Source of the DNA: Isosphaeraceae bacterium
GTDB lineage: Bacteria > Planctomycetota > Planctomycetia > Isosphaerales > Isosphaeraceae
Length of the DNA stretch: 64,000 nt
NCBI GenBank assembly: GCA_026004735.1
Contig: BPJS01000001.1
Span: 248,001-312,000 of the forward strand
Direction: 5' to 3'
Part shown: positions 4,754 to 59,035 of the stretch, piece by piece
Layout: each line of letters starts with the position of its first letter
Numbering within the stretch: position 1 is the stretch's first letter
The notes under the pieces: generated by a model
The model's input: the letters and a program-made list of their open reading frames with translations, nothing else
Databases searched by the model: none
What the model was told of the DNA's origin: nothing
Made by a program: the position numbers and the translations under genes

Positions 4754-5581
4754 ATGACGTCCCTGCCTCCTTCACTCGCCGTGCTCGCCCTCCTCGGACT
4801 CGCAGCCCCCTTCGCTCTGGCCTTCAACGCCGAGGACCAAAAACCCACCTACGGCTACCGCGACACCCCCTACCTCCCCGGCGGCCAATGGCGCGTCCAC
4901 GACGCCGACCGACCCCTCCCTCCCGTCGTCGACCCCGGCACCCCCGACCTCGACCCGCCTCCCTCCCCACCTCCCTCCGACGCCATCGTCCTCTTCGACG
5001 GCTCCTCCCTGGACCACTGGCACGGCGACGGCGGCAAACCCGCCCCCTGGAAAGTCGAAGACGGCGCCATCGTCATCGTCCCTCGCTCCGGCTCCCTCAT
5101 CTCCAACCAGTCCTTCGGCGATTGCCAAATCCACCTCGAATTCCAGACCCCCTCTCCACCCGAAGGCTCCGACCAGGGCCGCGGCAACAGCGGCCTGCTC
5201 ATCATGTCCCGCTACGAAATCCAAATCCTCGACAACTACAACAACCCCACCTACGCCGACGGCCACGCCGGCGCCGTCTACGGCCAGACCCCACCCCTGG
5301 TCAACGCCTGCCGTCCCCCAGGTCGCTGGCAAACCTTCGACATCATCTGGCGCGCCCCTCGCTTCAAACCCGACGGCTCCCTCGACCAGCCCGCCTTCGT
5401 CACCGTCTTCCACAACGGCATCCTCGTCCAGGACCACACCCAAGTCCTCGGACCCGTCCGCTGGCGCGACCTGGCTCGCTACGAACCCGGCGACGCCCAC
5501 GGCGACGCCCCTATCCTCCTCCAAGACCACGGCGACCCCGTCCGCTTCCGCAACATCTGGGTCCGCCCCCTCAGCCACTAA
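4754..5581 (+). CDS. Exported DUF1080 (3-keto-disaccharide hydrolase-like) protein
   Basis: A 275-residue protein with an N-terminal Sec signal (MTSLPPSLAVLALLGLA, cleavage near AFALA) and one DUF1080 jelly-roll domain. The domain shows the family opening IVLFDGSSLDHWHG, the LEFQTP strand, GNSGLLI, YEIQILD and a final FRNIWVRPL. DUF1080 domains are very numerous in Planctomycetes and are related to concanavalin-like glycosidase folds; some members hydrolyse 3-keto-glycosides. The frame is open further upstream (ATG at 4541 and 4655), but that stretch is proline-rich and would bury the signal peptide, so 4754 was chosen. It lies on the predicted lagging strand and diverges from the ccsA-hemA pair. 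Confidence 0.85.
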   Translation: MTSLPPSLAVLALLGLAAPFALAFNAEDQKPTYGYRDTPYLPGGQWRVHDADRPLPPVVDPGTPDLDPPPSPPPSDAIVLFDGSSLDHWHGDGGKPAPWKVEDGAIVIVPRSGSLISNQSFGDCQIHLEFQTPSPPEGSDQGRGNSGLLIMSRYEIQILDNYNNPTYADGHAGAVYGQTPPLVNACRPPGRWQTFDIIWRAPRFKPDGSLDQPAFVTVFHNGILVQDHTQVLGPVRWRDLARYEPGDAHGDAPILLQDHGDPVRFRNIWVRPLSH

Positions 5582-5673
5582 CCCCACTCGCCGACCACTC
5601 CCACCTTCCTCCAAGAATCCATCAAACGCCTATCTTTTTCTTCATAAACGCACACTAACGTAACGCATCGTTC

Positions 5674-21530: not shown

Positions 21531-24212
21531 CTACGCGTCCAGATGGTCGTCCGGTTCGCCGTCGGCGTTCTGGTCGTCGATATGATCGCTGGCCTCGGCC
21601 GCCCCCACCCGGTCGTCCAACAGATGCGCCGGCTTGTCCCCCCCACTCACACCCGAACGATCCGCGTCCGCCTGAGCGGCCAACGCTTCCGCGGCCGCTT
21701 GCTCGTCCTGCGGTAGCTTCGCCAGCGACCGCACCACGTCGTCGGCGTCCAGGCGAATCAGCCGCACCCCCTGCGTGTTGCGGCCAATCTGGCTAATGTC
21801 CGCCACACGCGTCCGGATCAGGTTGCCGGCCGCCGTCGAAATCATCACCTCATCCGCGTCCGTCACCTTGGCAATCGCCACCACCGGTCCATTCCGGTCC
21901 GTCGTCTTGATGTCAATCAACCCCTTCCCGCCCCGACCCTGTGGCCGATACTCCGCCAGCGGCGTCCGCTTCCCATAACCATGCGCGCAAACCGTCAGCA
22001 GGCTCGCCGGGTCCTGATCCCCCTCGGCGACCACCATCCCCACAACCTCATCGTTCGGCTCCAACGTGATCCCCTTGACCCCATACGCCTGGCGACCCAT
22101 CGCCCGAACCTCCCCCTCCTCAAACCGGATCGCCATCCCGTGCCGTGTCGACAAAATCACATGATCCCCAGGCCGAACCCGGTCCACGCCAATCAACGTG
22201 TCCCCCTCGTCCAGCCCCAACGCAATAATCCCCCGCCCCAGCGGACGCCGAAACGCCGGCAGCAGCGTCTTCTTGACCGTCCCCCGCCGGGTCACCATCA
22301 CCAACGCCTCTTCCTCCGGAAACTCCCGGACCGGCACCAGCCCCGTTACCTTCTCCCCCTCTTCCAACTGAAGCAGATTCACCAGGGCACGGCCGCCCGC
22401 CGTCCGCGTCGCCAGCGGAACGTCGTAAACCTTAAGCCAGTGCACCTTCCCTCGATTCGTGAAAAACAAAATATAATCATGCGTCAGCGCTACAAACGTA
22501 TGCTCCAGAAAGTCGCCATCCTTCGTGGCCGCCGCCGTGATCCCCCGCCCACCCCGGCCCTGCGGCCGGTACGTATCCGGCGGCGTCCGCTTGATGTAGC
22601 CCTCGTGGGTGATCGTCACCACCATATACTCTTCGCGTATCAGGGCCTCCTTGTCGTAGTCGGCCACTTCCTCGTCCGAAAGCTGCGTCCGCCGCGGGTC
22701 GGCATACTGGCTCTTCAGGTGCTCCAGATCCGCGCGAATCAGGTCCAGAATCAGCCCATGATTGGCCAGGATGTTCTCGTAGCGGGCAATATCCTCCTTG
22801 AGACCCCGATACTCGGCCGCAAGCTTGTCGGCTTCCAGTCCCGTCAGCCGCTGCAACTGCATGGCCAGAATCGCGTCGGCCTGCTGCCGCGTCAGACTCG
22901 ACGTCGCCTCGGCCCCCGGATCGTCCAACGCCCGCCGCAAAATCTCCGCCGAGACCGCCATCCCCATCAGCCGCACCCGCGCTTCGGCCGGATCCCGCGA
23001 CGTCCGGATCGTCTGGATGATCTCGTCAATATACGCCAGCGCAATCAGCAAACCCTCAACCACATGCGCACGCTGCCGCGCCTGCCGGAGCTGATACTGC
23101 GTCCGCCGCCGCAACACATTGATCCGGTGATCCACATACTGCTTGAGCAACTCCTTCAGATTCAGCAGCCGCGGCCGACCATCCACCAGCGCCAACAGAA
23201 TCACACTGAAACTGTCTTGAAGCGGCGTATATTCATATAATTGATTCAACGTCACATGCGGATCTTCCCCCCGCTTCAGCTTGATCACGATCCGCACCGG
23301 ATTCTTGCGGTCCGACTCGTCGATCGGCTCCCCCGCCGCCCCCGTGATCCGCCCCGCCTCAATCTGCTCGGCAATCCGCCGCAGCAAGGACTCCTTGGTC
23401 TGCTGGTACGGAATGTCCGAAAACACAATCTGGCACCGCCCGTCCTTCAGCTCCTCAATCGTATGCTGCGCACGCACCACCACCCGCCCACGGCCCGTAT
23501 GGTACGCCTCCCGGATCCCCGCCCGGCCGCAGAGCGTCCCCCCCGTCGGAAAATCCGGACCCAGCAAGTGCTCCATCAGATCGTCGATCGAGCAGTCCGG
23601 ATGATCGATCAAATGACCAATCGCATCGCAGACTTCCGCCAGATTGTGCGGCGGGATCGACGTCGCCATCCCCACCGCAATCCCGCCCGAACCATTCACC
23701 ATCAGGTTCGGAAACTTTCCCGGCAAAACCCGCGGCTCTTGATACTTCTCGTCGTAGTTCGGCTGAAAGTCGACCGTATCGAGCGTGATATCCTCCAGCA
23801 TCTCCGCCGCGATCGGGCTCAGCTTGGCCTCCGTATACCGCATCGCCGCCGGCGGCAGCCCATGAATCGACCCAAAATTGCCCTGGGGCGTCACCAGCAA
23901 GTGCCGCGTGTTCCACCACTGACCCATCCGCGCCAGCGTCGGATAAATCGAGTTGTCCCCATGCGGGTGATACCGCTTCATCGTCTCGCCGACGATCCCC
24001 GCACATTTCGACGTCGATCCCCCAGGACCCAGCCCCAGATCCCGCATCGCCACCAGAATCCGACGCTGCGACGGCTTCAGACCATCCCGCACGTCGGGCA
24101 ACGCCCGACTGACGATCACCGACATCGCATACGTCAGGTAGCTCTCCTTCAGCTCCTCCTCAATGTTCAGCGGAATCGGTTCCGGCGGGACAGTCGGCTC
24201 GGCAGTGCTCAC
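21531..24212 (-). CDS. gyrA: DNA gyrase subunit A
   Basis: An 893-residue type IIA topoisomerase subunit that cuts and rejoins DNA and, with GyrB, introduces negative supercoils. The N-terminus has SYLTYAMSVIVSRALPDVRDGLKPSQRRIL; the catalytic tyrosine is residue 126 in PAAMRYTEAKLS. The C-terminal beta-pinwheel shows repeated blades with YRPQGRGGRG and YRPQGRGGKG, the second being the GyrA-box-like element. The last 60 residues are an acidic tail. At the quinolone-contact positions the usual Ser/Asp are Asn87 and Pro91 (HGDNSIYPTL). The start codon is GTG at 24212. gyrB is not in the window. It is on the predicted leading strand about 4 kb from the skew flip. Confidence 0.97.
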   Translation of the reverse strand: MSTAEPTVPPEPIPLNIEEELKESYLTYAMSVIVSRALPDVRDGLKPSQRRILVAMRDLGLGPGGSTSKCAGIVGETMKRYHPHGDNSIYPTLARMGQWWNTRHLLVTPQGNFGSIHGLPPAAMRYTEAKLSPIAAEMLEDITLDTVDFQPNYDEKYQEPRVLPGKFPNLMVNGSGGIAVGMATSIPPHNLAEVCDAIGHLIDHPDCSIDDLMEHLLGPDFPTGGTLCGRAGIREAYHTGRGRVVVRAQHTIEELKDGRCQIVFSDIPYQQTKESLLRRIAEQIEAGRITGAAGEPIDESDRKNPVRIVIKLKRGEDPHVTLNQLYEYTPLQDSFSVILLALVDGRPRLLNLKELLKQYVDHRINVLRRRTQYQLRQARQRAHVVEGLLIALAYIDEIIQTIRTSRDPAEARVRLMGMAVSAEILRRALDDPGAEATSSLTRQQADAILAMQLQRLTGLEADKLAAEYRGLKEDIARYENILANHGLILDLIRADLEHLKSQYADPRRTQLSDEEVADYDKEALIREEYMVVTITHEGYIKRTPPDTYRPQGRGGRGITAAATKDGDFLEHTFVALTHDYILFFTNRGKVHWLKVYDVPLATRTAGGRALVNLLQLEEGEKVTGLVPVREFPEEEALVMVTRRGTVKKTLLPAFRRPLGRGIIALGLDEGDTLIGVDRVRPGDHVILSTRHGMAIRFEEGEVRAMGRQAYGVKGITLEPNDEVVGMVVAEGDQDPASLLTVCAHGYGKRTPLAEYRPQGRGGKGLIDIKTTDRNGPVVAIAKVTDADEVMISTAAGNLIRTRVADISQIGRNTQGVRLIRLDADDVVRSLAKLPQDEQAAAEALAAQADADRSGVSGGDKPAHLLDDRVGAAEASDHIDDQNADGEPDDHLDA

Positions 24213-24343: not shown

Positions 24344-25897
24344 TTAACTGCCTGGAAAAAGAGACTTACAACACCCAAGCCAGGTCCCCCATCGCCCCCA
24401 ACCCGATCCCGCCCCACCCGCTCCGGGCCGGCCCGGCTCATGCCCCCGCTCCCTCCGAAGCGCCACGCCCAGCACGCCCGCAACCCGCCCCGGATGCCTC
24501 GCGTTCCCCAGCGCCGTGGCGTGCGCTCCATCCACCCGGCACACCCCCTCCTTCGCCTCCCCACACCCCACCAGACGCGCCCGCTGGCCCATCACCACCG
24601 CCAACAGCGCCAGCAGACCCCAGGTCGTCGCCCCGTAGCTGTCCAGAACGTCGGTCAGCGGCTTCCCAATCAGCCCCCGATCCAGCACCAGCACCAGCAC
24701 CACGTAAACCCCAAGCAGCCGCATCGGCCAGCGGTCCGGCCCACGCCCCGCCAGCCACTCCCGCGCAATCAGATACCCCGCCGGCACCGCCGCCACGCAA
24801 TGCTGCCGCCAGGTGATCGGCGAAACCAGAAGCATCAGCAGCGAAACCGCCGCCGCCTCGTACGCCACCCACGCCCCATCCGACCGATCCACCCGCCGCC
24901 CCATCCCCAGCGCTACCCCCGCCACCAGCAGCACCAACGCCACCTTGACCACCCACCCCGCCCAGACCGGATCCAGCCCCAACGCCCGCACCCGCAGCGG
25001 ATGATCCAAATAACTGGCGTGGCCCACCGGCGCCTCCACCAGCAACCGCCCCAACGCCGGCCTCAAGCTGACATTCTGCAGCTTCTCATCATTCAGCACC
25101 CCCCAGATCGGGCTGGCCTCGGTCAGCCCCTTGGCCGCATGGCCCATCCAGTAACGAACATGGTCCGCGTACGACCCCCACCCCATCCAAACCGCCGGCA
25201 ACACAAAAAACCCCAACGCCGCCACCCCGCTCAAACCCAGCATCCGCCACTGCCGCTTCCAGGCCAGATACCCCAAAAACAACGCGGGCGTGCACTTCAG
25301 CGCCATCGACAACCCCAACGCCGCCGCCCCAACCACCTCCCGTCCCCGCCACCACAGGTACACCCCCGCCCACGCCAACCCCACAATCATCAGGTTCGCC
25401 CCGCACTCGGGCAGCTCCCGGATCACAAACCGGCTCGCCAGCAACACCCCAAGCCCCGCCGCCCACACCGACCGCTCCCGATCCAGCGGCCACCGCCCCC
25501 GCGTCATCCGATCCAAAATCCCTAGCAACACCACAAGCGGCACCAGCCCAAACGGATACAGCACCGCACGCACCACCGGAAACGGCCCGACGGTCAAAAC
25601 GCTCGACGCCATCGCCCACGTCGGCGGATACGGCGTGTGCATCCCTCCCTCATAGAGAAACGCCCGCCGCAAAAACCGATCCCCAAACCGCCAGTGAAGC
25701 GCAAAATCGCCGACCGGCCGCAAAATCACCCGGCCCCAGTTGGCCAGAAACGCAATCGCCGCCGCCAGAATCAACCACCGGGCAACCCGCCGCCGCTGCC
25801 GGACCAGCCCACCCAGCAGCCAGCTCCCCAGGCCTCGGCCTCGTCCCTGGCCCCAGCCGGCCAACCCGCTCGGTTCGGAGGCGATCCCACGCATCAT
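24344..25897 (-). CDS. GT87-type (DUF2029) membrane glycosyltransferase
   Basis: A 517-residue polytopic membrane protein with about ten helices. It looks like glycosyltransferase family 87/DUF2029, whose members are polyprenol-phosphate-mannose-dependent mannosyltransferases or their relatives. Supporting features are an early acidic motif before a periplasmic loop (PVGDFALHWRFGDRFL, then PYPP), ALGLSMALKCTPALFLGYL, and SPITWRQHCVAAVPAGYL. The C-terminal 80 residues are hydrophilic and Gly/Arg-rich. ATG at 25897 was preferred over an in-frame GTG at 25909. It lies upstream of gyrA on the same strand with a 131-base gap. The sugar acceptor is unknown. Confidence 0.75.
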   Translation of the reverse strand: MMRGIASEPSGLAGWGQGRGRGLGSWLLGGLVRQRRRVARWLILAAAIAFLANWGRVILRPVGDFALHWRFGDRFLRRAFLYEGGMHTPYPPTWAMASSVLTVGPFPVVRAVLYPFGLVPLVVLLGILDRMTRGRWPLDRERSVWAAGLGVLLASRFVIRELPECGANLMIVGLAWAGVYLWWRGREVVGAAALGLSMALKCTPALFLGYLAWKRQWRMLGLSGVAALGFFVLPAVWMGWGSYADHVRYWMGHAAKGLTEASPIWGVLNDEKLQNVSLRPALGRLLVEAPVGHASYLDHPLRVRALGLDPVWAGWVVKVALVLLVAGVALGMGRRVDRSDGAWVAYEAAAVSLLMLLVSPITWRQHCVAAVPAGYLIAREWLAGRGPDRWPMRLLGVYVVLVLVLDRGLIGKPLTDVLDSYGATTWGLLALLAVVMGQRARLVGCGEAKEGVCRVDGAHATALGNARHPGRVAGVLGVALRRERGHEPGRPGAGGAGSGWGRWGTWLGCCKSLFPGS

Positions 25898-26185
25898 CCG
25901 GAATCCCACCGGCCAGCCATCCCTCCCAGCGCCGGTTCGGAGACCCGCTCCGCAGCCACCACCCGGCGCAACGCCTCTTCCCTATCGGCCGACCAGTCCA
26001 CCGACTCAACTCGATCGGCCGCGCCATCACACCCCCACAGACCACGCCGCGCCGCGCCACCCACAAAACCGGTCGACTCACCCCAACCGCCACAGTCCAG
26101 CAGCCCCTCGACCAAGCCAAAGCGGCCAGCACCTTACGATGCCGGCCGCCTCGCCCAAAGCCGCCTGCGCTCGAGCATCCCCGGG

Positions 26186-28390
26186 TCAGCTTTCCTTGCT
26201 AAACCTCAGGACCGGCGACTGGTCGCCACCACCAAGCATCGTAAACGACCAACTCCCAGCATCTTCCAGCTTGAACCGGCCCACCAGCGGCGGACCGTCC
26301 TCCTGGAGCAACGCCAGCTCGTCGAGCCGGACCAGCGACTGGCCCTTGATTGACGTCGCCGGTTTGCCCTGCGGCTCCGCCTTCCAGGTAAAGGCCCCTC
26401 CGTCGCGGATGATCAGCCGGATCGTCAGGTCGGGCGACGGCTTCGCCGTCCAGGTCCCCACCAGTTCGGCCGGCGGCGGTGTCGGCTCTGGCCCACCGTC
26501 ATCGGCCGGCTGGTCGCCCGGTGCGGCCACAGTCAGCGCCTCGCCCGCCGCCGCCTCGGCCCCCGGCGCTGCTGCTGCCGCCTCGGTCGCCGCCTCGCTC
26601 GGCTCCGGCATCAAAACGGCCGCAAACCGCGCCGAGAGCGTGTCCTTGGGCTGCAATTGCGCAACCTTCTTGAACTGCGCGGCCGCTTGCTCCTTGTGAC
26701 CCTGGGTCATGTAGTGATACGCCAGCACAAAGTGAGGCGCCGCCGCGTCGGGGTTTTGCCGCACGGCCTGCTCCAGCGCGCGAAGCTGCTGGGTGTAAGC
26801 CTCCGCGTTGCCATACAGGCCGATCATCGTATCCCAGGTCCAACCCGGACCGTTGGTCAGCACGACGTACAGCGCCGCGGCCGCCTCGTCATATCGACCC
26901 ACCGCGAACAGGCACAACGCCCGAAACTCATGCAGCACCGGGTCGCCCGGCAGCCCTTGCAACGCCTGATCGGCCAGGGCCAGCGCCTGCGCGAAGTTGC
27001 CCGCCTTAAACTGCTCCCGCGCCGCGTCGAACGTGGCCTGCGCCGCATCGGTCTGCGACGGCTCCGGCGCGGCTGCCACCGCCGCCGCGTCCCCCGAGCT
27101 ATCCGCCGCCAAGGCTAGCGGCTGGCTGTAGTCATACACAATCGTCTGCGACGGCGCTCCGGCCACCACCACCGGCGCCGTGTAATACGGATTAACCCAC
27201 CCGCTATAAAACGCGCTGCCAACCAGCGGCGTCAAACCCCAGCTCGAGTAGCCCACCGTCCCCCAGGTCGGAATCACCCGGAAGACATTGCCCGCCAGCC
27301 CCCCCACCAACGCCCCCGTAAACCCGCCCCAGAACGCATTGCTCCCCCAGTTGTTGTACCAACCCCGGTGATACCCCCAATAGGGATCGACCCAGCCTCC
27401 CCCCCAGCCATTCCAGCCACCACCCCATCCCCCCCAGCGGTTCCAACCACCACCAACAACCCAGTTGGTGTTGGTCCAGTTGTTCCAGGTGTTGTTGTTG
27501 ATCCAAATGTTGTTGATATTGTTATTATTTTGATTCCAGTTGGGGCTGGTGTTGTTCCACCAGTTGTTGTTGGGCCGGTTGGCCCAGCTTCCGCCCGATC
27601 CGCCGGGCCGGTTAGGCCGGTTGGCCCACCAGTCGCCGCCACCCGGACGACCGCCGCCACCGCCCGGCGGGACCGGCTCGGGCAACGGCCGCGGGCGCGT
27701 CAAGCCCCCGCCGGGACGGTTTCCGCCGCTGCCGCCGCCTGGCCGATTGCCGATATTGGGTAGGTTGGGTCGCTGACCGACATTGGGAAGGTTGGGACGA
27801 TTCGGCAGGCTTGGCAAATTGCCAATGCCCGGCCGGTCCCCGCCCCCGCCGGGACGGTTTCCGCCGCTGCCGCCGCCTGGCCGATTGCCGATATTGGGTA
27901 GGTTGGGTCGCTGACCGACATTGGGAAGGTTGGGACGATTCGGAAGGTTCGGCAAATTGCCAATGCCCGGCTGGTCCCCGCCGCCGCCGGGACGGTTTCC
28001 GCCGCTGCCGCCGCCTGGCCGGGTCAGCCCGCCGGGGCGTTGGCCGATATTCGGCGGGTTGGGACGGCTCCCGACGTTGGGGACGCTGGGCCGGCTGAGG
28101 CCGCCCCCGGGCCGCTGGATCTGGCCGCCCCCGGGCCGAGACATACCGCTGGGCCGAGACATCGGGGCACTGGGCCGGGACATACCGCTGGGCCGAGACA
28201 TACCGCTGGGCCGAGACATCGGGGCACTGGGCCGGGACATACCGCTGGGCCGAGACATACCGCTGGGCCGGGACAGGCCGCTGGGGCGATGGCCCCCGCC
28301 GCCTCGACGCTGGGCGAGGGCCGTGTCCGTGGTCAGCAACCCGAGCGCCGTTGCCAGGGCGATGCTGAGGGGTGTTGGTCGCCGGTTCAT
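26186..28390 (-). CDS. Exported repeat protein (SRPSGM, Gly-Asn-Pro and Trp-Asn repeats) with TPR tail
   Basis: A 734-residue protein. A signal peptide (MNRRPTPLSIALATALGLL, ending DTALAQ) is followed by SRPSGM hexapeptides in 19-residue super-repeats. Then come about two and a half copies of a 46-residue Gly/Asn/Pro/Leu repeat (NLPNRPNLPNVGQRPNLPN). Next is an Asn/Trp-rich zone (NNNWWNN, WINNNTWNNW, GGWGGGWNGWGGGW) and a short glycine-rich hydrophobic stretch (GGFTGALVGGLAGN). Residues of about 430-600 form TPR-like helices (ALALADQAL, YDEAAAALYVVL, HFVLAYHYMTQGHKEQAAAQF). The last 110 residues look like a small beta domain (VGTWTAKPSPDL, FTMLGGG). Similar architectures occur in Planctomycetes; the function is unknown. 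Confidence 0.75.
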   Translation of the reverse strand: MNRRPTPLSIALATALGLLTTDTALAQRRGGGGHRPSGLSRPSGMSRPSGMSRPSAPMSRPSGMSRPSGMSRPSAPMSRPSGMSRPGGGQIQRPGGGLSRPSVPNVGSRPNPPNIGQRPGGLTRPGGGSGGNRPGGGGDQPGIGNLPNLPNRPNLPNVGQRPNLPNIGNRPGGGSGGNRPGGGGDRPGIGNLPSLPNRPNLPNVGQRPNLPNIGNRPGGGSGGNRPGGGLTRPRPLPEPVPPGGGGGRPGGGDWWANRPNRPGGSGGSWANRPNNNWWNNTSPNWNQNNNNINNIWINNNTWNNWTNTNWVVGGGWNRWGGWGGGWNGWGGGWVDPYWGYHRGWYNNWGSNAFWGGFTGALVGGLAGNVFRVIPTWGTVGYSSWGLTPLVGSAFYSGWVNPYYTAPVVVAGAPSQTIVYDYSQPLALAADSSGDAAAVAAAPEPSQTDAAQATFDAAREQFKAGNFAQALALADQALQGLPGDPVLHEFRALCLFAVGRYDEAAAALYVVLTNGPGWTWDTMIGLYGNAEAYTQQLRALEQAVRQNPDAAAPHFVLAYHYMTQGHKEQAAAQFKKVAQLQPKDTLSARFAAVLMPEPSEAATEAAAAAPGAEAAAGEALTVAAPGDQPADDGGPEPTPPPAELVGTWTAKPSPDLTIRLIIRDGGAFTWKAEPQGKPATSIKGQSLVRLDELALLQEDGPPLVGRFKLEDAGSWSFTMLGGGDQSPVLRFSKES
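27711..28010. repeat. 138-bp tandem repeat inside the repeat-protein gene
   Basis: The string CCGGGACGGT begins at 27711, 27849 and 27987, exactly 138 bases apart. The intervening sequence is nearly identical, with a few substitutions. 138 bp is 46 codons, so gain or loss of a unit keeps the reading frame. Confidence 0.85.
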
Positions 28391-28600
28391 GGTCCGGTGT
28401 CCTCTTCGATGCGGTGGGGCGAGCGGGCTGGTTGCGGGGGTCTCGGGGCGTCTGGGGGTTCGGGCTTAGGGCGGATGTCCCGGTTGTGATGGCTGGGCGG
28501 GCCGGTCGGGGTGCTGGGAGGGTGTCGACCGGCTCGCGCTGCGCTTGGTCAGACGGCGTGACCTGGGGCGCGGTGGATGCTGGGTGGGCGTCTAGCGTCC
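28000..28600. other. GC-skew sign change (probable origin zone)
   Basis: To the left the + strand is C-rich, to the right G-rich. The lines at 27121-27180 are still C-rich and those at 28441-28500 clearly G-rich. The change falls in the 5' part of the repeat-protein gene and the 201-base gap after it. It is bracketed by gyrA and dnaN. The exact point would need a computed cumulative skew curve. Confidence 0.7.
28124..28290. repeat. Short in-frame repeat coding SRPSGM units
   Basis: Units of 18 bp (TACCGCTGGGCCGAGACA type) alternate with 21-bp units containing CATCGGGGCAC, giving a 57-bp higher-order repeat. All units are multiples of three, so the frame is preserved. Confidence 0.75.
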
Positions 28601-29599
28601 GGCCGGTGGTGCTGGCTCGGGCGTGGGCGGTTTGCGGACCATGATGATCTCGGGGATGTCCGGCTGGGGTTCGCCGCCGACGATGCGGTTGATCGACCCG
28701 AGGCGGACCGAGTCGTTGTTGATTGGGGCGATGGTCTGGGTGGCGGAGGTGACCTGGCCGTCGCGGGTCATTCCGGTGGCGTGGATGACCCAGGTTCCGT
28801 CGACCTCGGACCAGTAGCCTTCGCCGAAGCCGCCTTCGGAGTCGAAGATCCAGGAGCGGATCTGCTGGGCCTTGGGGTCGTAGCCGATGAACTGGGTGCC
28901 GGAGGAGCCTTTTTCGCCGCCGATCTCGGCCTCGAAGGTGCGGATCAGGTAGTTCTTGTTGGGGTCCATCCAGCGGACCGAGGTGGTGATTTTGACGCCC
29001 TGGGATTCGTCGACCCAGTCGCCGATCATCCATTCGAGGGGTGCCAGGTAGGGGTAGTTGCTGCCGCCGGCGGCGATCTGGACGGCGTGGTCGCGGATTT
29101 CGGCGATTTTCCAGGCCTTGTCTGGGCCGCGGACGGCGATCACGCCGAACCGCCCACCGGCGGTGGGGCTGCCGTCGCTGGCCACGAGTTGGAAGTCGCC
29201 GCGAATCGAGGCGGTATCCGGGCCGAGGAAGCGGAAGCCGTCGATGGTGCCTTGGAAGTGGTCGGTGGGGCCTTCGGCGAACGCGGCGGCGTATTCGGCG
29301 AGGATGGCGTCGCGGCCGATGGTTTCGTTGCCGTCGGTGTCGATCAGCACGGCCTGGGGGTCCATCAGGGCGGCCATGGCCTCGGGCTTCTGCGCGTTGT
29401 AGGCCTCGACGAAGGCGCGGAGCATGGCGCGCACGGCGCGTTCGTCGTCGGGGCGGTCGGTCATCAGTGGCGGGGCGACGGCTGCCGGGGCCGCCGGGGG
29501 CGCCTGGCCCTGGTTGGGTGCCTGGGCACCTAGGCTCACGTTTGCGTTCGAGCCGATCCAGAGAGCCGCGGCCCATGCGGCCGGGTGCAGGCCAGTCAT
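28592..29599 (-). CDS. Exported SnoaL-like / DUF4440-type protein
   Basis: A 335-residue protein with a weak signal sequence (MTGLHPAAWAAALWIG, ending near LGAQA). Residues 40-160 look like a SnoaL/NTF2-like (SgcJ/EcaC, DUF4440) domain: VRAMLRAFVEAYNAQKPEA, LMDPQAVLIDTDGNE, YAAAFAEGP. Residues 180-310 resemble a lipocalin-like DUF1579-type domain (LEWMIGDWVDES, FIGYDPKAQQIRSWIFDSEGGFGEGYW). No catalytic residues can be named. The frame is open to 29650, but the ATG at 29599 places the hydrophobic stretch at the N-terminus. It follows the skew flip and lies on the predicted lagging strand. Confidence 0.75.
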   Translation of the reverse strand: MTGLHPAAWAAALWIGSNANVSLGAQAPNQGQAPPAAPAAVAPPLMTDRPDDERAVRAMLRAFVEAYNAQKPEAMAALMDPQAVLIDTDGNETIGRDAILAEYAAAFAEGPTDHFQGTIDGFRFLGPDTASIRGDFQLVASDGSPTAGGRFGVIAVRGPDKAWKIAEIRDHAVQIAAGGSNYPYLAPLEWMIGDWVDESQGVKITTSVRWMDPNKNYLIRTFEAEIGGEKGSSGTQFIGYDPKAQQIRSWIFDSEGGFGEGYWSEVDGTWVIHATGMTRDGQVTSATQTIAPINNDSVRLGSINRIVGGEPQPDIPEIIMVRKPPTPEPAPPAGR

Positions 29600-29861
29600 G
29601 ATTGCCTCGTCGATTGGGGCGATTTGACGGATGGGGAGAGACGTCCGCACACAGTGAACCGGTTCGCCGAGCCGGCTTTGGTCCGGCGGATGGTTGGTTG
29701 GCTTGGGTGGATTCTAGTCCAGGGGCGAGGTGTTGTCGCTGGGTTGGTTCGCACCAGCGGGGCGGTTGCCGGCCGCTGGGTCGCACGATGGGGAGGTGGT
29801 AGACGGGGGTGCGGCGGCGGCGTGGGGGTCGGGTGGTATGCCGCCAGGGTCGAAGCGGCGC

Positions 29862-30332
29862 TCATGCCAGGATCTGGACATCGTAGCGGGCGCAGAGGGT
29901 TTTCAGGGTTGCCCGGTCGTTGGGGTCGACGCCGTCGGAGTCGAGGAAGAAGCCGGCGAACCGCCCGGGGATGATCGTCAGCAGCAACCGTCCCGGGCTT
30001 GGGCCGACGTTGTGGAAGGTATGGGGGATGTCCGGGGGCGCGACGACGAGCGATCCTGGCGGTGCGGCCTGCCTTTGGCTGCCCAAGGTGATTTCGAACT
30101 GGCCTTCGAGGATGTAGAAGACTTCGGTTTCGTGGCGGTGGACGTGCAGGGGTGGTCCGTGATCGGCGGGGATGAGCTGCTCGAGGATGGCATAAGCGCC
30201 GGCTGTCTGGTCGGGCCGAACCTTGATCGTGGTTTCGGCGGCGAGGGTGACGACGCGGGTGCCCTCGCCGGGTCGGCACACGATGGGCGAGGAGGTTTCT
30301 GTTTGGGGAAGCCGGGGGCCGTCTGGCGCCAT
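29862..30332 (-). CDS. Cupin-domain protein
   Basis: A 156-residue single-cupin protein. The metal-binding motif 1 is PPLHVHRHETEVFYILEGQF (H, H, E), and motif 2 lies in PPDIPHTFHNVG. Cupins of this form include dioxygenases, isomerases and sugar-binding proteins, so the reaction cannot be assigned. The open frame continues upstream to 30737 but is low-complexity there; the ATG at 30332 (MAPDGPRLPQ) fits the domain size. It is transcribed away from dnaN, with about 790 bases between them. Confidence 0.85.
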   Translation of the reverse strand: MAPDGPRLPQTETSSPIVCRPGEGTRVVTLAAETTIKVRPDQTAGAYAILEQLIPADHGPPLHVHRHETEVFYILEGQFEITLGSQRQAAPPGSLVVAPPDIPHTFHNVGPSPGRLLLTIIPGRFAGFFLDSDGVDPNDRATLKTLCARYDVQILA

Positions 30333-31122
30333 GGTCTGCGGGTCTCCGCGCCCTGTTGAATCGGGTCTGGTTGTCCTATAGGGTACGCCGCGGCGCTGGG
30401 CGTTGGATGGCGAAACCGGAGAATCCGGTCCAATCGGCAAAGTCGTGGCGTTGGTTGAGTCAACCGGCTGCGGAAAGATTGCCGCCCGCGTCGATTTTGA
30501 AGCTGGTCTCGGCCAGCAGCCGCCGCGCCCGGGCCGGGTCGGCGGTGGCGGGCGGGGCACGGGTCCGTCGCGGCTGGCGAGGTGGGCGGAGCCGGTTGGC
30601 CAGGCGGTTTGGGCCGCGGTCGGGTTCGTTTTGCGGTTTGCGGATCGGGGAAAAGGTTGTCGACAGACCCGTCGTGGGGTCGATGGCAGGCCGGCACGTC
30701 TGAGGGTGTTGGAGCCGATGGCGCTGGGCCGCATCATCGCCGGCGTCGGACGAGCGACCGACTGTGCGCACCATCATCAACGGGTTTTTCCCTGGTGTAC
30801 GGGAGCTTGCGAAGGAACCCAAGGTCCGTTCTGGCTTCTGGTTGGGTTGCAGGGCAAAGCGGTTGTTGACCGTCGATCGGGGCGCTCGGACGGCGGTGGC
30901 TGAGAGTGATTTCTTGAACAGGCCGAGCTGGCCCGGGCGGGGCGGTGTGAACACGCGGGGGGGCGGGCTGCGACGGGTTGGGGGATGTGATATGGTGGGT
31001 TCGCGGGGGTTTGGGTTGACGATCGGACGGGTGGGCGTGGCGGGGTGGGGGCGTGGGTTTTCTTGGGCATCGAGCCGACGGAGCGGCTGGGTTGAGCCGG
31101 CCGCCGGCTGGGGATGGTGTTT
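30333..31122. other. 790-base non-coding region upstream of dnaN (oriC candidate)
   Basis: This is one of the longest gene-poor stretches in the window, between the divergent cupin and dnaN genes and 2-3 kb from the skew flip. Its composition is more balanced than its surroundings. It holds the palindrome TGTCGACA (30658-30665) after AAAAGGT and short T-rich pieces (GGGTTTTTCC at about 30781). No clear TTATCCACA-type DnaA box or AT-rich unwinding tract was seen, so it is only a positional candidate. An alternative is the AT-rich 35400-35520 next to dnaA. Confidence 0.35.
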
Positions 31123-32235
31123 ATGAAGGCGTTGTGCAATCGCGAGGGGCTGCTGGCCGGTTTTGGGATGGCCAGCCTGGTGGCGCCGGCGCGGAGTCCG
31201 AAGACGATTCTTCAGAGCGTCAAGCTCGATGTGTCTGAGAATGGGTCGGAGCTGCTGGCGACGGATCTGGAGGTAGGGATTCGGCATCGCGTCCTGGGCG
31301 TGAAGGTGGACGAGCCGGGGGCGGTGATTTTGCCGACGCAGCGGTTTGGGCAGATTCTGCGCAGTTTGTCGGATGAGGAGCTGGCGATCGAGTTGCAAGG
31401 CAATCAGGTTGTGGTGCGGGGTCGGCATGCGCAGTTCAAGTTGCCGACGGACGATGCGTCGTTGTATCCGGAGTTGCCGGACTTTGGCGCCAGTGCGTAC
31501 TACGTGGTGACGGCCGCCGATCTGCGGCGTGGGATTCGGCGGACGGTCTTTGCGACCGATGTGGAAAGCACGCGGTATGCGTTGGGTGGGGTGTTGTTTG
31601 AGCTGAAGGACGAGCGGTTGACGCTGGTGGCGACCGACGGTCGGCGGCTGGCGCGGCAGGTGGTGGGGGTCGATGTGGAGGGGAAGCCGGGTCTGCCGGA
31701 GAGTCAGCCGGTGGTGCCGGTCAAGGCGTTGAAGCTGGTGGAGCGGAGCTTGCAGGATGAAGATCCGCCGGTGCATTTGGTTTTTCAGGGGAATCATGTG
31801 TTGATGCGTACTGAGGAGGCGGTGATTTACAGCCGGCTGGTCGAGGGGCGGTTTCCGCGATATCAGGATGTGTTTCCGGCGCAGGTGGAGGTGCGGATTC
31901 CGTTGGAGGCGGGACCGTTGTTGCGGGCGACGGAGCAGGCGTCGATTGTGACGAGCGAGGAGAGCCGGGCGGTTGATTTTCACTTTGGTCCTGGGGTGTT
32001 GCGGCTGACGAGCCAGGCGCCGGATCAGGGGTCGTCGGATATTGAGCTGGCGATTGCGTATGAGGATCGGCCGGTGTCGATCCTGTTTGACCCGCGGTAT
32101 CTGGTCGAGGCGTTGCGGGTGCTGGACGAGTCGGCGGCGGTGACGGCCGAGCTGGTGGACCCGCGGAATGCGGCGGTTTTCAGAACTGAGGACGACTACA
32201 CCTACGTCGTCATGCCGCTGACCCGCGAGCGCTGA
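31123..32235 (+). CDS. dnaN: DNA polymerase III sliding clamp (beta subunit)
   Basis: A 370-residue protein with three clamp domains. The N-terminal MKALCNREGLLAGF and LATDLEVGIRH fit domain I, with FKLPTDDASLYPELP at its end. ALGGVLFELKDERLTLVATDGRRLA marks domain II. The C-terminal FDPRYLVEALRVLDE and YTYVVMPLTRER mark domain III and the family's typical MPL/MPM ending. The clamp encircles DNA and holds polymerase III during replication. The ATG at 31123 is preferred over 31114 because clamp proteins usually begin with M-K. It is on the predicted leading strand immediately right of the origin zone. Confidence 0.96.
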   Translation: MKALCNREGLLAGFGMASLVAPARSPKTILQSVKLDVSENGSELLATDLEVGIRHRVLGVKVDEPGAVILPTQRFGQILRSLSDEELAIELQGNQVVVRGRHAQFKLPTDDASLYPELPDFGASAYYVVTAADLRRGIRRTVFATDVESTRYALGGVLFELKDERLTLVATDGRRLARQVVGVDVEGKPGLPESQPVVPVKALKLVERSLQDEDPPVHLVFQGNHVLMRTEEAVIYSRLVEGRFPRYQDVFPAQVEVRIPLEAGPLLRATEQASIVTSEESRAVDFHFGPGVLRLTSQAPDQGSSDIELAIAYEDRPVSILFDPRYLVEALRVLDESAAVTAELVDPRNAAVFRTEDDYTYVVMPLTRER

Positions 32236-32555: not shown

Positions 32556-32984
32556 ATGGTGTATCGCAAGCACATTCAGTTGCACACGAGCGGGCATGGG
32601 GATTTGCACGATTTGTCGGAGGCGGTGTTGCGGGTGGTCGAGCAGTCGAAGGTGGATTGTGGGGTGGCGCACATTTTTGTGATCGGCAGCACGGGGGCGG
32701 TGGGGACGATTGAGTATGAGCCGGGGTTGGCGGCGGATCTGCCGGACACGCTGGATCGGCTGATCCCGCCGGGTCGGCATTATCAGCATGAGCAGGCGTG
32801 GGGTGACGGCAATGCGCACTCGCATTTGCAGGCGACGCTGTTGGGGGCGAGCCTGGGGGTTCCGGTGGAGAATGGTCGGCTGATCCTGGGGACGTATCAG
32901 CAGATTGTGTTTTTGGAGTGCGACACGCGGCCGCGGGAGCGGACGTTGGTGGTGACGGTGGTCGGGGAGGTGAAGCGGCGGTGA
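32556..32984 (+). CDS. YjbQ / UPF0047 family protein
   Basis: A 142-residue protein of the YjbQ (UPF0047) family, whose members have thiamine-phosphate-synthase side activity in vitro and an unclear main role. The family's end block is well kept: NAHSHLQATLLGASLGVPVENGRLILGTYQQIVFLECD, and the start HTSGHGDLHDLSEAVL is typical. The metal-site histidines are in NAHSHLQA. GGGAGG stands nine bases before the ATG. It converges with the propeller gene on the other strand, with a hairpin between them. Confidence 0.92.
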   Translation: MVYRKHIQLHTSGHGDLHDLSEAVLRVVEQSKVDCGVAHIFVIGSTGAVGTIEYEPGLAADLPDTLDRLIPPGRHYQHEQAWGDGNAHSHLQATLLGASLGVPVENGRLILGTYQQIVFLECDTRPRERTLVVTVVGEVKRR

Positions 32985-35500: not shown

Positions 35501-36481
35501 CTAGGGATTTGATTGATCTTTTTGGACGCGGGCGAAGGTTTGGGCGGTGCTGGCCAGGGCGGGGTTGGTGTTGAGGCGGGCGGCGGTGGCGGAGCAGGCG
35601 TGGCGGATGGCTTTGGTGTCGCGGTGGCCGAAGTAGCGGGCCAGGCGGGCGAAGCTGGCGCCGGTGGTTTGGCGGGCGAGGTAGATGGCGAGGTGGCGGG
35701 GGGTGACGAGGGCGGGGTGGCGGCGGGGTCCGCGGAGGTCGGTCAGGGAGACGCCGAAGTGGCGGGCGACGAGGCGGGCGATGTGGGCGATGGACTGGTC
35801 GATGGAGGGAGGGTCGGAGGTCGGGGGCGGCGGGTCGGGGGTGGGCAGGTGGAGGCGCGAGGAGAGTTGGAGTTGGGCGAGGAGGCCGTCGAGCTGGCGG
35901 AAGCCGCCGCAGGTGGTGAGGTGGTCGAGGGTGGTAGGGGAGAGGGTGAGTCCGAGGGCGGCGGCGCGTTGGAGGGCGTAGCGGCGGAGGAGTTCGGGTC
36001 CGGGCGGCTGGAGGCGGACGGCCAGCCCGGCGCGGAGGCGGCTGACGAGTCGGGCGGGCCAGTGGTCGGGCCAGGCCGAAGGCGGCCAGGGGCAGGTGAA
36101 GGCGGCGGCGGCGGCGAGGTGGTCGAGCGCGTCGAGCTGGGAGGCGAGCTGAGCGCGGAGCGCGGGCGAGCGGTTGAGGGCGGCGAGGTTGTCGAGGGCG
36201 AGCAGTTCGACGTTGAGGTCGAGCGGGGCGGGGGTCTGGGGGGATTCGAGCAGGGAGGCGGCGTCGAGGAGGCAGACGGGGGAGTTGGGGAAGCGGTGAA
36301 GGCGTTCGGCGACCAGGCCGGCCAGGAGGCGGGACTTGCCGGAGCCGCTCGGGCCGTGGATGACCAGGGGTGAGATGGCGTGAGGCTCGGCGCGTGCGAG
36401 GGCGGCGGCGGCGGCGAAGGCCAGTTGGTTTTCGGGTCCGACGAGGAAGCCGTCCCAGGGGTGGGCGGCGGTTGGGTTCAT
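35501..36481 (-). CDS. dnaA: Short divergent DnaA (domains III and IV only)
   Basis: A 326-residue DnaA-family protein; usual DnaA is about 450. It starts directly at domain III (FLVGPENQLAFAAA), so domains I and II are missing. Walker A is GPSGSGKS (43-50). Walker B is LLALDN (93-98), where the usual second Asp is Asn. The arginine region RLVSRLRAGLAVRLQPP (144-160) is well kept. Domain IV is clear: HFGVSLTDLRGPRRHPALV, the helix RHLAIYLARQTTG, and GHRDTKAIRHAC where most DnaA have GGRDHTTVLHAC. Its ATG overlaps the upstream unknown gene by four bases. It may be the initiator or a DnaA/Hda-like regulator; no second dnaA is in view. Confidence 0.8.
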   Translation of the reverse strand: MNPTAAHPWDGFLVGPENQLAFAAAAALARAEPHAISPLVIHGPSGSGKSRLLAGLVAERLHRFPNSPVCLLDAASLLESPQTPAPLDLNVELLALDNLAALNRSPALRAQLASQLDALDHLAAAAAFTCPWPPSAWPDHWPARLVSRLRAGLAVRLQPPGPELLRRYALQRAAALGLTLSPTTLDHLTTCGGFRQLDGLLAQLQLSSRLHLPTPDPPPPTSDPPSIDQSIAHIARLVARHFGVSLTDLRGPRRHPALVTPRHLAIYLARQTTGASFARLARYFGHRDTKAIRHACSATAARLNTNPALASTAQTFARVQKDQSNP

Positions 36482-50611: not shown

Positions 50612-52127
<1,516 letters not shown>

Positions 52128-52344
52128 GGGGGAAAAGCCTCCGAGCCCTGGTGGGGGGACGGGGGGTTAGGCGGGCCAGCGGGGCTCGGGCGAGGTGGAG
52201 CGGCCGGCGTGGCCCGCGGGGTGGGTTCGGGGTGCCTTTCCCGGCTTATTAGAGCGATCCGGGGGCGATCCGGCAAGGGTGGCCGGAGCGGAGTGGGTTT
52301 TGGGTTGGGGGCGATGGGGTTGGCGGGTTGAGGGTTCGGGGTGG

Positions 52345-58150: not shown

Positions 58151-59035
58151 ATGAGGTTGTGGATGGGTGAGGTGGTGGTTTGTCCGGTGGGACGGCGGGC
58201 GGAGGCGTTGGGGTTGGTGTTGGGTCGGGAGGTGGAGGCGGGTGAGGAGTGGGAGGATTTGGGGTTGATGGTGGTGTTGGGTGCGGGGGGTCGGATGGAT
58301 GGGGTGGTGATGTATCAGCGGTTGGCCGGTTGTGGTGGGGTGGTGTGGGCGCCGTGGGTGCGGAGGGGGTGGGGTCGTCGGGAGTTGGGGGGGCGGTTGG
58401 TTCGGGCGGCGGTGGGGGAGTTGCGGGCTGGGGGAGTGCGGGTGGTGCAGGCGTTGGTGGGGGGAGGGGTGGGGATGGGGGGGGATTTGGAGCGTGGGGG
58501 TTTGCCGTATGTGACGGATTTGTTGACGTTGAGTCGGTCGACGGAGGAGGAGTTGGAGGTGGGGCCGGGGGTGCCGGAGCTGAGGTGGCGGGGGTATGAG
58601 GAGGTGGGGGAGGAGCGGTTTGGGGAGGTGTTGGAGGCGACGTATGAGGGGAGTCAGGATATGCCGGAGTTGGTGGGGGTGCGGGGTGTAGGGGAGATGA
58701 GGGCGGGTCAGGAGGCGATAGGTCGGTTTGAGGCGGATTTGTGGCTGGTGGGGGAGGTGGAGGGGGAGCCTGGGGCGGCGGGGGTCTTGGTGCTGGCCGA
58801 TGGGGAGGAGCGGGGGTGTATGGAGGTGGTGTATTTGGGTTTGACGGTGGGGGCGCGGGGTCGGGGGTTGGGGCGTCGGGTGGTGGCGGAGGCGGTGCGG
58901 CGGTCGCGGGGTCGGCGGCCGCGGTTGGAGTTGGGGGTGGATGAGCGCAATGGGGTGGCGTTGCGGCTGTATCGGCGTGTGGGGTTTCGGGAGGTGGGGC
59001 GGCGGTCGGTGTATTTGAGGGTGTTTGGGGGTTGA
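58151..59035 (+). CDS. GNAT-family acetyltransferase (two-domain)
   Basis: A 294-residue protein. The C-terminal GNAT domain is clear: MEVVYLGLTVGARGRGLGRR with the acetyl-CoA loop, then RLELGVDERNGVALRLYRRVGFREV. The N-terminal 140 residues resemble a second GNAT-like half (RGWGRRELGGRLVRAAVGELR). Such double-GNAT proteins are common; the substrate is unknown. The composition is extreme in Gly, Val, Arg and Glu, matching the G-rich strand. The start at 58151 has GGAGG eight bases before it. Confidence 0.8.
   Translation: MRLWMGEVVVCPVGRRAEALGLVLGREVEAGEEWEDLGLMVVLGAGGRMDGVVMYQRLAGCGGVVWAPWVRRGWGRRELGGRLVRAAVGELRAGGVRVVQALVGGGVGMGGDLERGGLPYVTDLLTLSRSTEEELEVGPGVPELRWRGYEEVGEERFGEVLEATYEGSQDMPELVGVRGVGEMRAGQEAIGRFEADLWLVGEVEGEPGAAGVLVLADGEERGCMEVVYLGLTVGARGRGLGRRVVAEAVRRSRGRRPRLELGVDERNGVALRLYRRVGFREVGRRSVYLRVFGG

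Follow-up and report, generated by a model that had tools for sequence, protein, structure and literature searches.

About a dozen probable replication origins, and an eroded family oriC, on one Isosphaeraceae chromosome

The 64,000-nucleotide stretch analysed here (the window) corresponds to positions 248,001–312,000 of a single 4,822,286-bp contig of an Isosphaeraceae bacterium (93% complete; DnaN relatives, at ≤ 69% identity, place the genome in this family), and contains an abrupt reversal of GC skew in the neighbourhood of gyrA and dnaN. With a probability of roughly 70%, we regard about a dozen such flips as discrete replication origins on one bacterial chromosome, and the present one as the strongest among them. 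A broader proposition, namely that a dozen or more fixed, point-like origins without DnaA-box clusters operate after erosion of the family's oriC, in a eukaryote- or archaeon-like programme run by bacterial machinery, is in our view an even bet.

An earlier note on this DNA had described an extreme change from C-rich to G-rich sequence on the plus strand, and both the flip and the base counts quoted for it (32 C and 7 G at 1–60; 3 C and 36 G at 58,201–58,260) were confirmed exactly. GC skew in 1-kb intervals ranged from −0.13 to −0.60 across 1–28 kb and from +0.19 to +0.69 across 28–64 kb, with the sign changing at ~27.5–28 kb and the cumulative GC-skew minimum of the window falling at 27,462. 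Change-point analysis of fourfold-degenerate and intergenic sites placed the reversal, the putative site of exchange between leading and lagging strands, at 27,365–27,437 (best position 27,383, log-likelihood ratio 599), which is close to, albeit slightly left of, the 28.0–28.6 kb originally proposed. Chance is excluded as the source of this flip. Skew at fourfold sites was between −0.94 and −0.69 left of 26 kb and between +0.60 and +1.00 beyond 28.5 kb, whichever strand a gene was on and with a single exception among the genes of either side; it was present between genes as well as in coding DNA. Even adjacent 315-bp blocks of the 734-aa gene containing the flip went from −0.50 (27,131–27,445) to +0.33 (27,446–27,760). 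Judging by 1-kb and fourfold skew, which declines to about zero some 200 kb away on either side, the plus strand would be lagging in the C-rich arm (1–27,364) and leading in the G-rich arm (27,438–64,000). AT content over 60 bp is highest in the window at 27,475–27,534 (68% AT, a run of Asn codons), ~90 bp from the change-point, and this segment represents a candidate unwinding element.

The remainder of the genome was sampled as 20-kb stretches on a 40-kb grid with additional fill-ins (2.85 Mb in total, 59% of the genome); the fill-ins were placed mostly at upward flips, a bias from which tests on the uniform 40-kb grid are free. At least 12 sharp minus-to-plus flips were present in this sample, near 0.275, 1.148, 1.787, 2.262, 2.516, 3.074, 3.409, 3.770, 4.027, 4.509, 4.603 and 4.739 Mb; further flips, near 1.40 and 4.27 Mb, were weaker. 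The flips are point-like: silent-site change-points pinned the 12 to intervals of 39–1524 bp (log-likelihood ratios 75–602). Flip amplitudes in a 12-site model ranged from 0.10 to 0.43, the largest being that of the window, and fourfold skew approached saturation elsewhere too (−0.85/+0.76 at 3.41 Mb, −0.89/+0.65 at 3.77 Mb). Mean skew was approximately −0.3/+0.25 over 10–45 kb from the flips, −0.31/+0.22 at 30–45 kb and close to zero at 200 kb, giving a sawtooth of abrupt rises and gradual declines. TA skew correlated with GC skew (r = 0.59), and maximal AT content in the 300 bp around a change-point was 0.53 for the 12 sites vs 0.47 for random positions (post hoc p ~ 2e-4).

A two-arm skew pattern was absent from the sampled genome. 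The best two-replichore model explained very little of the variance (R2 = 0.033), and one with its origin in the window even less (R2 = 0.017). The 12-site decay model reached R2 = 0.69, compared with ≤ 0.31 for rotated or random sites (amplitudes refitted, site search not repeated); this R2 is descriptive because the sites came from the same data as the fit. The earlier note had read the window flip as the standard mark of oriC, to be checked by a genome-wide cumulative minimum at this place. The positional, replication-like nature of the flip, its independence of gene orientation and its proximity (~3 kb) to the family oriC site all agree with that reading. As the mark of a single origin it did not survive: interpolation puts the global minimum near 4.02 Mb, flips of comparable kind number at least 12, and a two-replichore model centred here accounts for 2% of skew variance. 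A standard oriC upstream of dnaN was likewise not what we found, the DnaA boxes of relatives being eroded here and the full-length dnaA residing elsewhere (4.598 Mb).

Isosphaeraceae-type dnaN loci carried 41 DnaA boxes (1.7 expected) 100–600 bp upstream of the gene, in 20 out of 23 loci (family box TTATC[CAG]AC[AG], ≤ 1 mismatch counted). No box with ≤ 1 mismatch was found in the 700 bp upstream of dnaN in the window or near the flip, and no cluster of three boxes within 600 bp was detected in the 2.85 Mb sampled. Perfect TTATCCACA boxes numbered seven genome-wide vs seven for the reversed control. Nevertheless, a profile of the dnaN upstream regions of 23 relatives had its best match in the 2.85 Mb at 30,638–30,797 of the window (E = 1.9e-4; 4.4e-6 for the window alone), in inverse orientation, the element being roughly palindromic. 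Two relic boxes were recognisable within it, CTGTCGACA (30,658–30,666, minus strand; TTATC[CG]ACA in relatives) and TCATCAACG (30,774–30,782, plus strand; TTATCAACA in relatives), separated by 116 bp where relatives have 114–116 bp. Because the relic matches the relatives' profile while its boxes have decayed, the ancestral oriC is recognisable yet eroded in this genome, ~3.3 kb from the presumed flip. Of the hallmarks of a canonical oriC, homology to relatives was thus found here, and neither a DnaA-box cluster nor a global two-arm minimum. A pair of family-type boxes at 1,135,480 and 1,135,699 was rejected as an origin, as it lies in a skew-free insert and a chance pair occurred in ~ 25% of draws.

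Most members of the class possess two DnaA paralogues, the short one as a rule encoded near dnaN and the long one at another locus, and only two dnaA genes were present in this genome. The long DnaA (4,598,041–4,599,903; 620 aa with DnaA_N, AAA and box-binding domains) is encoded ~3.4 kb away from the flip at 4.603 Mb and has the same box-contact motif, GGRNHSTV, as its relatives. The short paralogue (35,501–36,481, minus strand), which has AAA+ and box-binding domains but nothing that matches DnaA_N, carries a divergent motif, FGHRDTKAIRHA, in a region that we take to contact the box from what is generally known of E. coli DnaA. At this place FGGRDPATVRHA or a similar motif is found in most family members, and FGGRDHTTVLYA in Pirellulales-type members; in this family the motif of the short paralogue diverges. 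Orc1/Cdc6 (PF09079) was absent from the genome, with archaeal controls positive.

Tests of ALTERNATIVES addressed transcription, inversions and a single origin. Several flips occur at housekeeping operons (gyrA/dnaN, fusA, rpsB-tsf, pdh and rpoB; another is near ftsY), which favours a strand asymmetry borne by transcription rather than replication, for example by R-loops at highly expressed operons. Such an explanation is nonetheless highly improbable: skew tracks position and not gene strand, with a strong correlation across stretches between fourfold skew of plus- and minus-strand genes (r = 0.93), a weak one between skew and gene-strand share (r = 0.13), and a co-oriented coding share of 0.50 within 100 kb of flips. 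The flips are independent of gene direction and replication-like. Furthermore, the skew reaches some 200 kb and holds between genes, the main ribosomal protein cluster (rplB, 106 kb) is near a maximum of the cumulative curve and not at a flip, and RNase HI, the loss of which would have indicated R-loop-driven initiation resembling constitutive stable DNA replication (cSDR), is present (PF00075 match at 1,457,036, E = 1.7e-41). Quite unlikely, too, is an ordinary single oriC in the window, with all other flips being inversions or translocations of a once two-armed chromosome, even though the strongest flip adjoins dnaN, gyrA and the relic oriC, and skew-free inserts testify to rearrangement and acquisition. 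Inversions predict equal numbers of sharp upward and downward steps, whereas the 40-kb grid contained eight upward jumps > 0.35 and no downward ones (sign-flip p = 0.009), and contiguous stretches contained nine sharp upward flips and no sharp plus-to-minus flip (with fill-ins favouring upward flips). Flips are also found within intact genes and conserved operons, such as rpoB, beside rplL-rplJ-rplA (change-point support 4,507,564–4,509,088), and the pdhA-pdhB junction (4,026,507–4,026,924), and therefore do not represent inversion or assembly joints. Amplitude declines smoothly with distance, and two-arm models explain just 2–3% of the variance.

Repeated relocation of a single origin, with the other flips left behind as fossils of earlier origins, could account for both the unequal amplitudes (0.10–0.43) and the eroded ancestral oriC. 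However, a constant skew offset of opposite sign on each arm would then be expected, and none was seen (R2 = 0.017 with the origin here); several other flips are near fourfold saturation and resolved to < 500 bp, and we consider this history unlikely. We give very little credence to an assembly artefact, in which unrelated pieces or several small replicons were concatenated. The 93% completeness leaves some room for it, as does the result that no terminal overlap was found between the contig ends, but the flips lie within single genes or conserved operons and not at joints, the stretches read contain zero N, and G+C content is broadly uniform. Separate replicons would hold their skew to their ends, whereas here it declines away from the flips; with only two dnaA genes, the contig is therefore not a set of dnaA-bearing replicons.

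In the many-origin reading that we prefer, the window flip would mark a place long used to initiate replication, and the 4.8 Mb chromosome would have at least 12 of these. Replication would proceed bidirectionally from every site until its forks met others, whether launched from another site or by dispersed initiation; because the meeting places vary, net fork direction, and hence the mutational leading-strand excess of G over C, would peak near the site and fade to zero by ~200 kb. Several minus-to-plus flips with a gradual return, and a skew independent of gene orientation, are expected of a multi-origin chromosome and were both observed. The flips would then be initiation sites active today, local AT-rich DNA may provide the unwinding site, and initiation would no longer rely on canonical DnaA boxes. 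The window site, with the largest amplitude and a position beside the relic oriC and dnaN, is most likely the most used.

Five points weigh against this reading. Skew is an evolutionary average. The census of flips covers 59% of the genome, with fill-ins mostly at upward flips. A search for a shared motif (k-mers of 6–10 within 5 kb or 500 bp of the flips) returned none beyond chance, and a full-length DnaA with an ordinary box-binding motif is present. Finally, we know of no strongly skewed bacterium for which many discrete origins per chromosome have been established.

The mutational asymmetry is itself pronounced. Near the window flip, 77–87% of fourfold sites were G on the presumed leading strand vs ~40% in skew-free regions, a gain mostly at the cost of C. 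Skew in 2-kb intervals around dnaN of relatives was ≤ ~0.15 (21 kb compared), and the strong asymmetry is therefore specific to this lineage. RNase HI, uracil-DNA glycosylase and MutS are all present, and their loss was therefore rejected as a cause. Given that skew across ~7000 complete RefSeq genomes reaches up to ~0.4 (PMC7111523), the 1-kb values of 0.5–0.69 seen here are extreme.

Skew-free segments with abrupt edges were observed within skewed arms at 3.10–3.187 Mb and 1.130–1.137 Mb, as well as at both extremities of the contig (1–60 kb, and from 4.81 Mb onwards); G+C was 0.72 in one of them. These are probably recently acquired islands, and skew may allow their acquisition to be timed. 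The step at 3.187 Mb was rejected as a flip, being the edge of the first of these segments. A strongly C-rich block (−0.3) at 0.60–0.667 Mb ended abruptly at zero skew without a flip to plus, and is possibly another origin whose right side has been replaced. In the window, two called genes (4772–5587 and 51,603–52,331) had fourfold skew of +0.08 and +0.09 among near-saturated neighbours and are either recent acquisitions or wrong-strand gene calls. Repeats shared between flips were discarded as origin elements, since they are mainly coding repeats of an abundant DUF1559 pilin-like family. Two equally scoring 16S rRNA genes of opposite orientation were located at 843,373 (plus) and 2,953,741 (minus); rRNA operons were rejected as flips, as neither of these positions (0.843 and 2.954 Mb) is at one.

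Genes around the flip include gyrA (21,531–24,212, minus strand; PF00521, PF03989), a GT87-type membrane protein (24,344–25,909, minus), the flip-bearing gene itself (26,186–28,390, minus), which is an intact open reading frame for the 734-aa Gly/Pro/Ser- and Asn-rich protein with TPR repeats, a SnoaL/DUF4440 protein (28,592–29,650, minus) and a cupin (29,862–30,737, minus). They are followed by dnaN, encoding the DNA polymerase III beta clamp (31,114–32,235, plus; PF00712, PF02767, PF02768), in which the alignment of relatives begins at ATG 31,123, and by a UPF0047 protein (32,556–32,984, plus). The identities earlier proposed for the flip's neighbours gyrA, dnaN and a DnaA-like gene thus hold, the last being the short paralogue. 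Tandem repeats at 28,076–28,300 of the flip-bearing gene code for RPSGMS-type units.

Reviews hold one origin per bacterial chromosome to be general (PMC7174701). In the cyanobacteria Synechocystis 6803 and Nostoc 7120, multi-origin, DnaA-independent replication has been shown experimentally and skew is irregular (PMC7198777). The present genome resembles these bacteria in an apparently lost or weakened DnaA-oriC dependence, a dnaA apart from dnaN and no two-arm skew, yet in place of irregular or collapsed skew it displays about a dozen sharp, strong and reproducible flips at discrete sites. Archaea such as Sulfolobus, Haloarcula and Haloferax have multiple origins on one chromosome (PMC3269012, PMC3936714); several fixed origins and several skew valleys of unequal depth are features in common, whereas archaea use Orc1/Cdc6 at ~3–4 origins and here Orc1/Cdc6 was not found and sites number 12 or more. 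Multi-valley skew in some bacteria was previously read as a hint of multiple origins, with a warning about rearrangement (PMC3269012). Human skew N-domains and U-domains carry gradients of fork polarity (PMC3320577), and there too skew rises abruptly at initiation sites and falls off gradually from one to the next; unlike those megabase domains, spacing here is ~400 kb, silent-site skew reaches 1.0 and flips are point-like. Compared with the canonical oriC of Isosphaeraceae (Singulisphaera and others), the position upstream of dnaN, the homologous relic and the 114–116 bp box spacing are shared, while the boxes are eroded here and relatives are little skewed at dnaN.

The known exceptions to a single origin, some cyanobacteria, leave no clean skew signature. 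The near-saturated silent-site skew of this lineage (up to 87% G on the presumed leading strand) constitutes an unusually clear strand clock, on which recent acquisitions are conspicuous by their lack of skew. If the many-origin reading is true, sharp and mappable multi-origin signatures on a chromosome with a fossil oriC would make the escape from DnaA-oriC control testable, together with what replaces it, and with the question of why many origins are usual in archaea and eukaryotes but not in bacteria.

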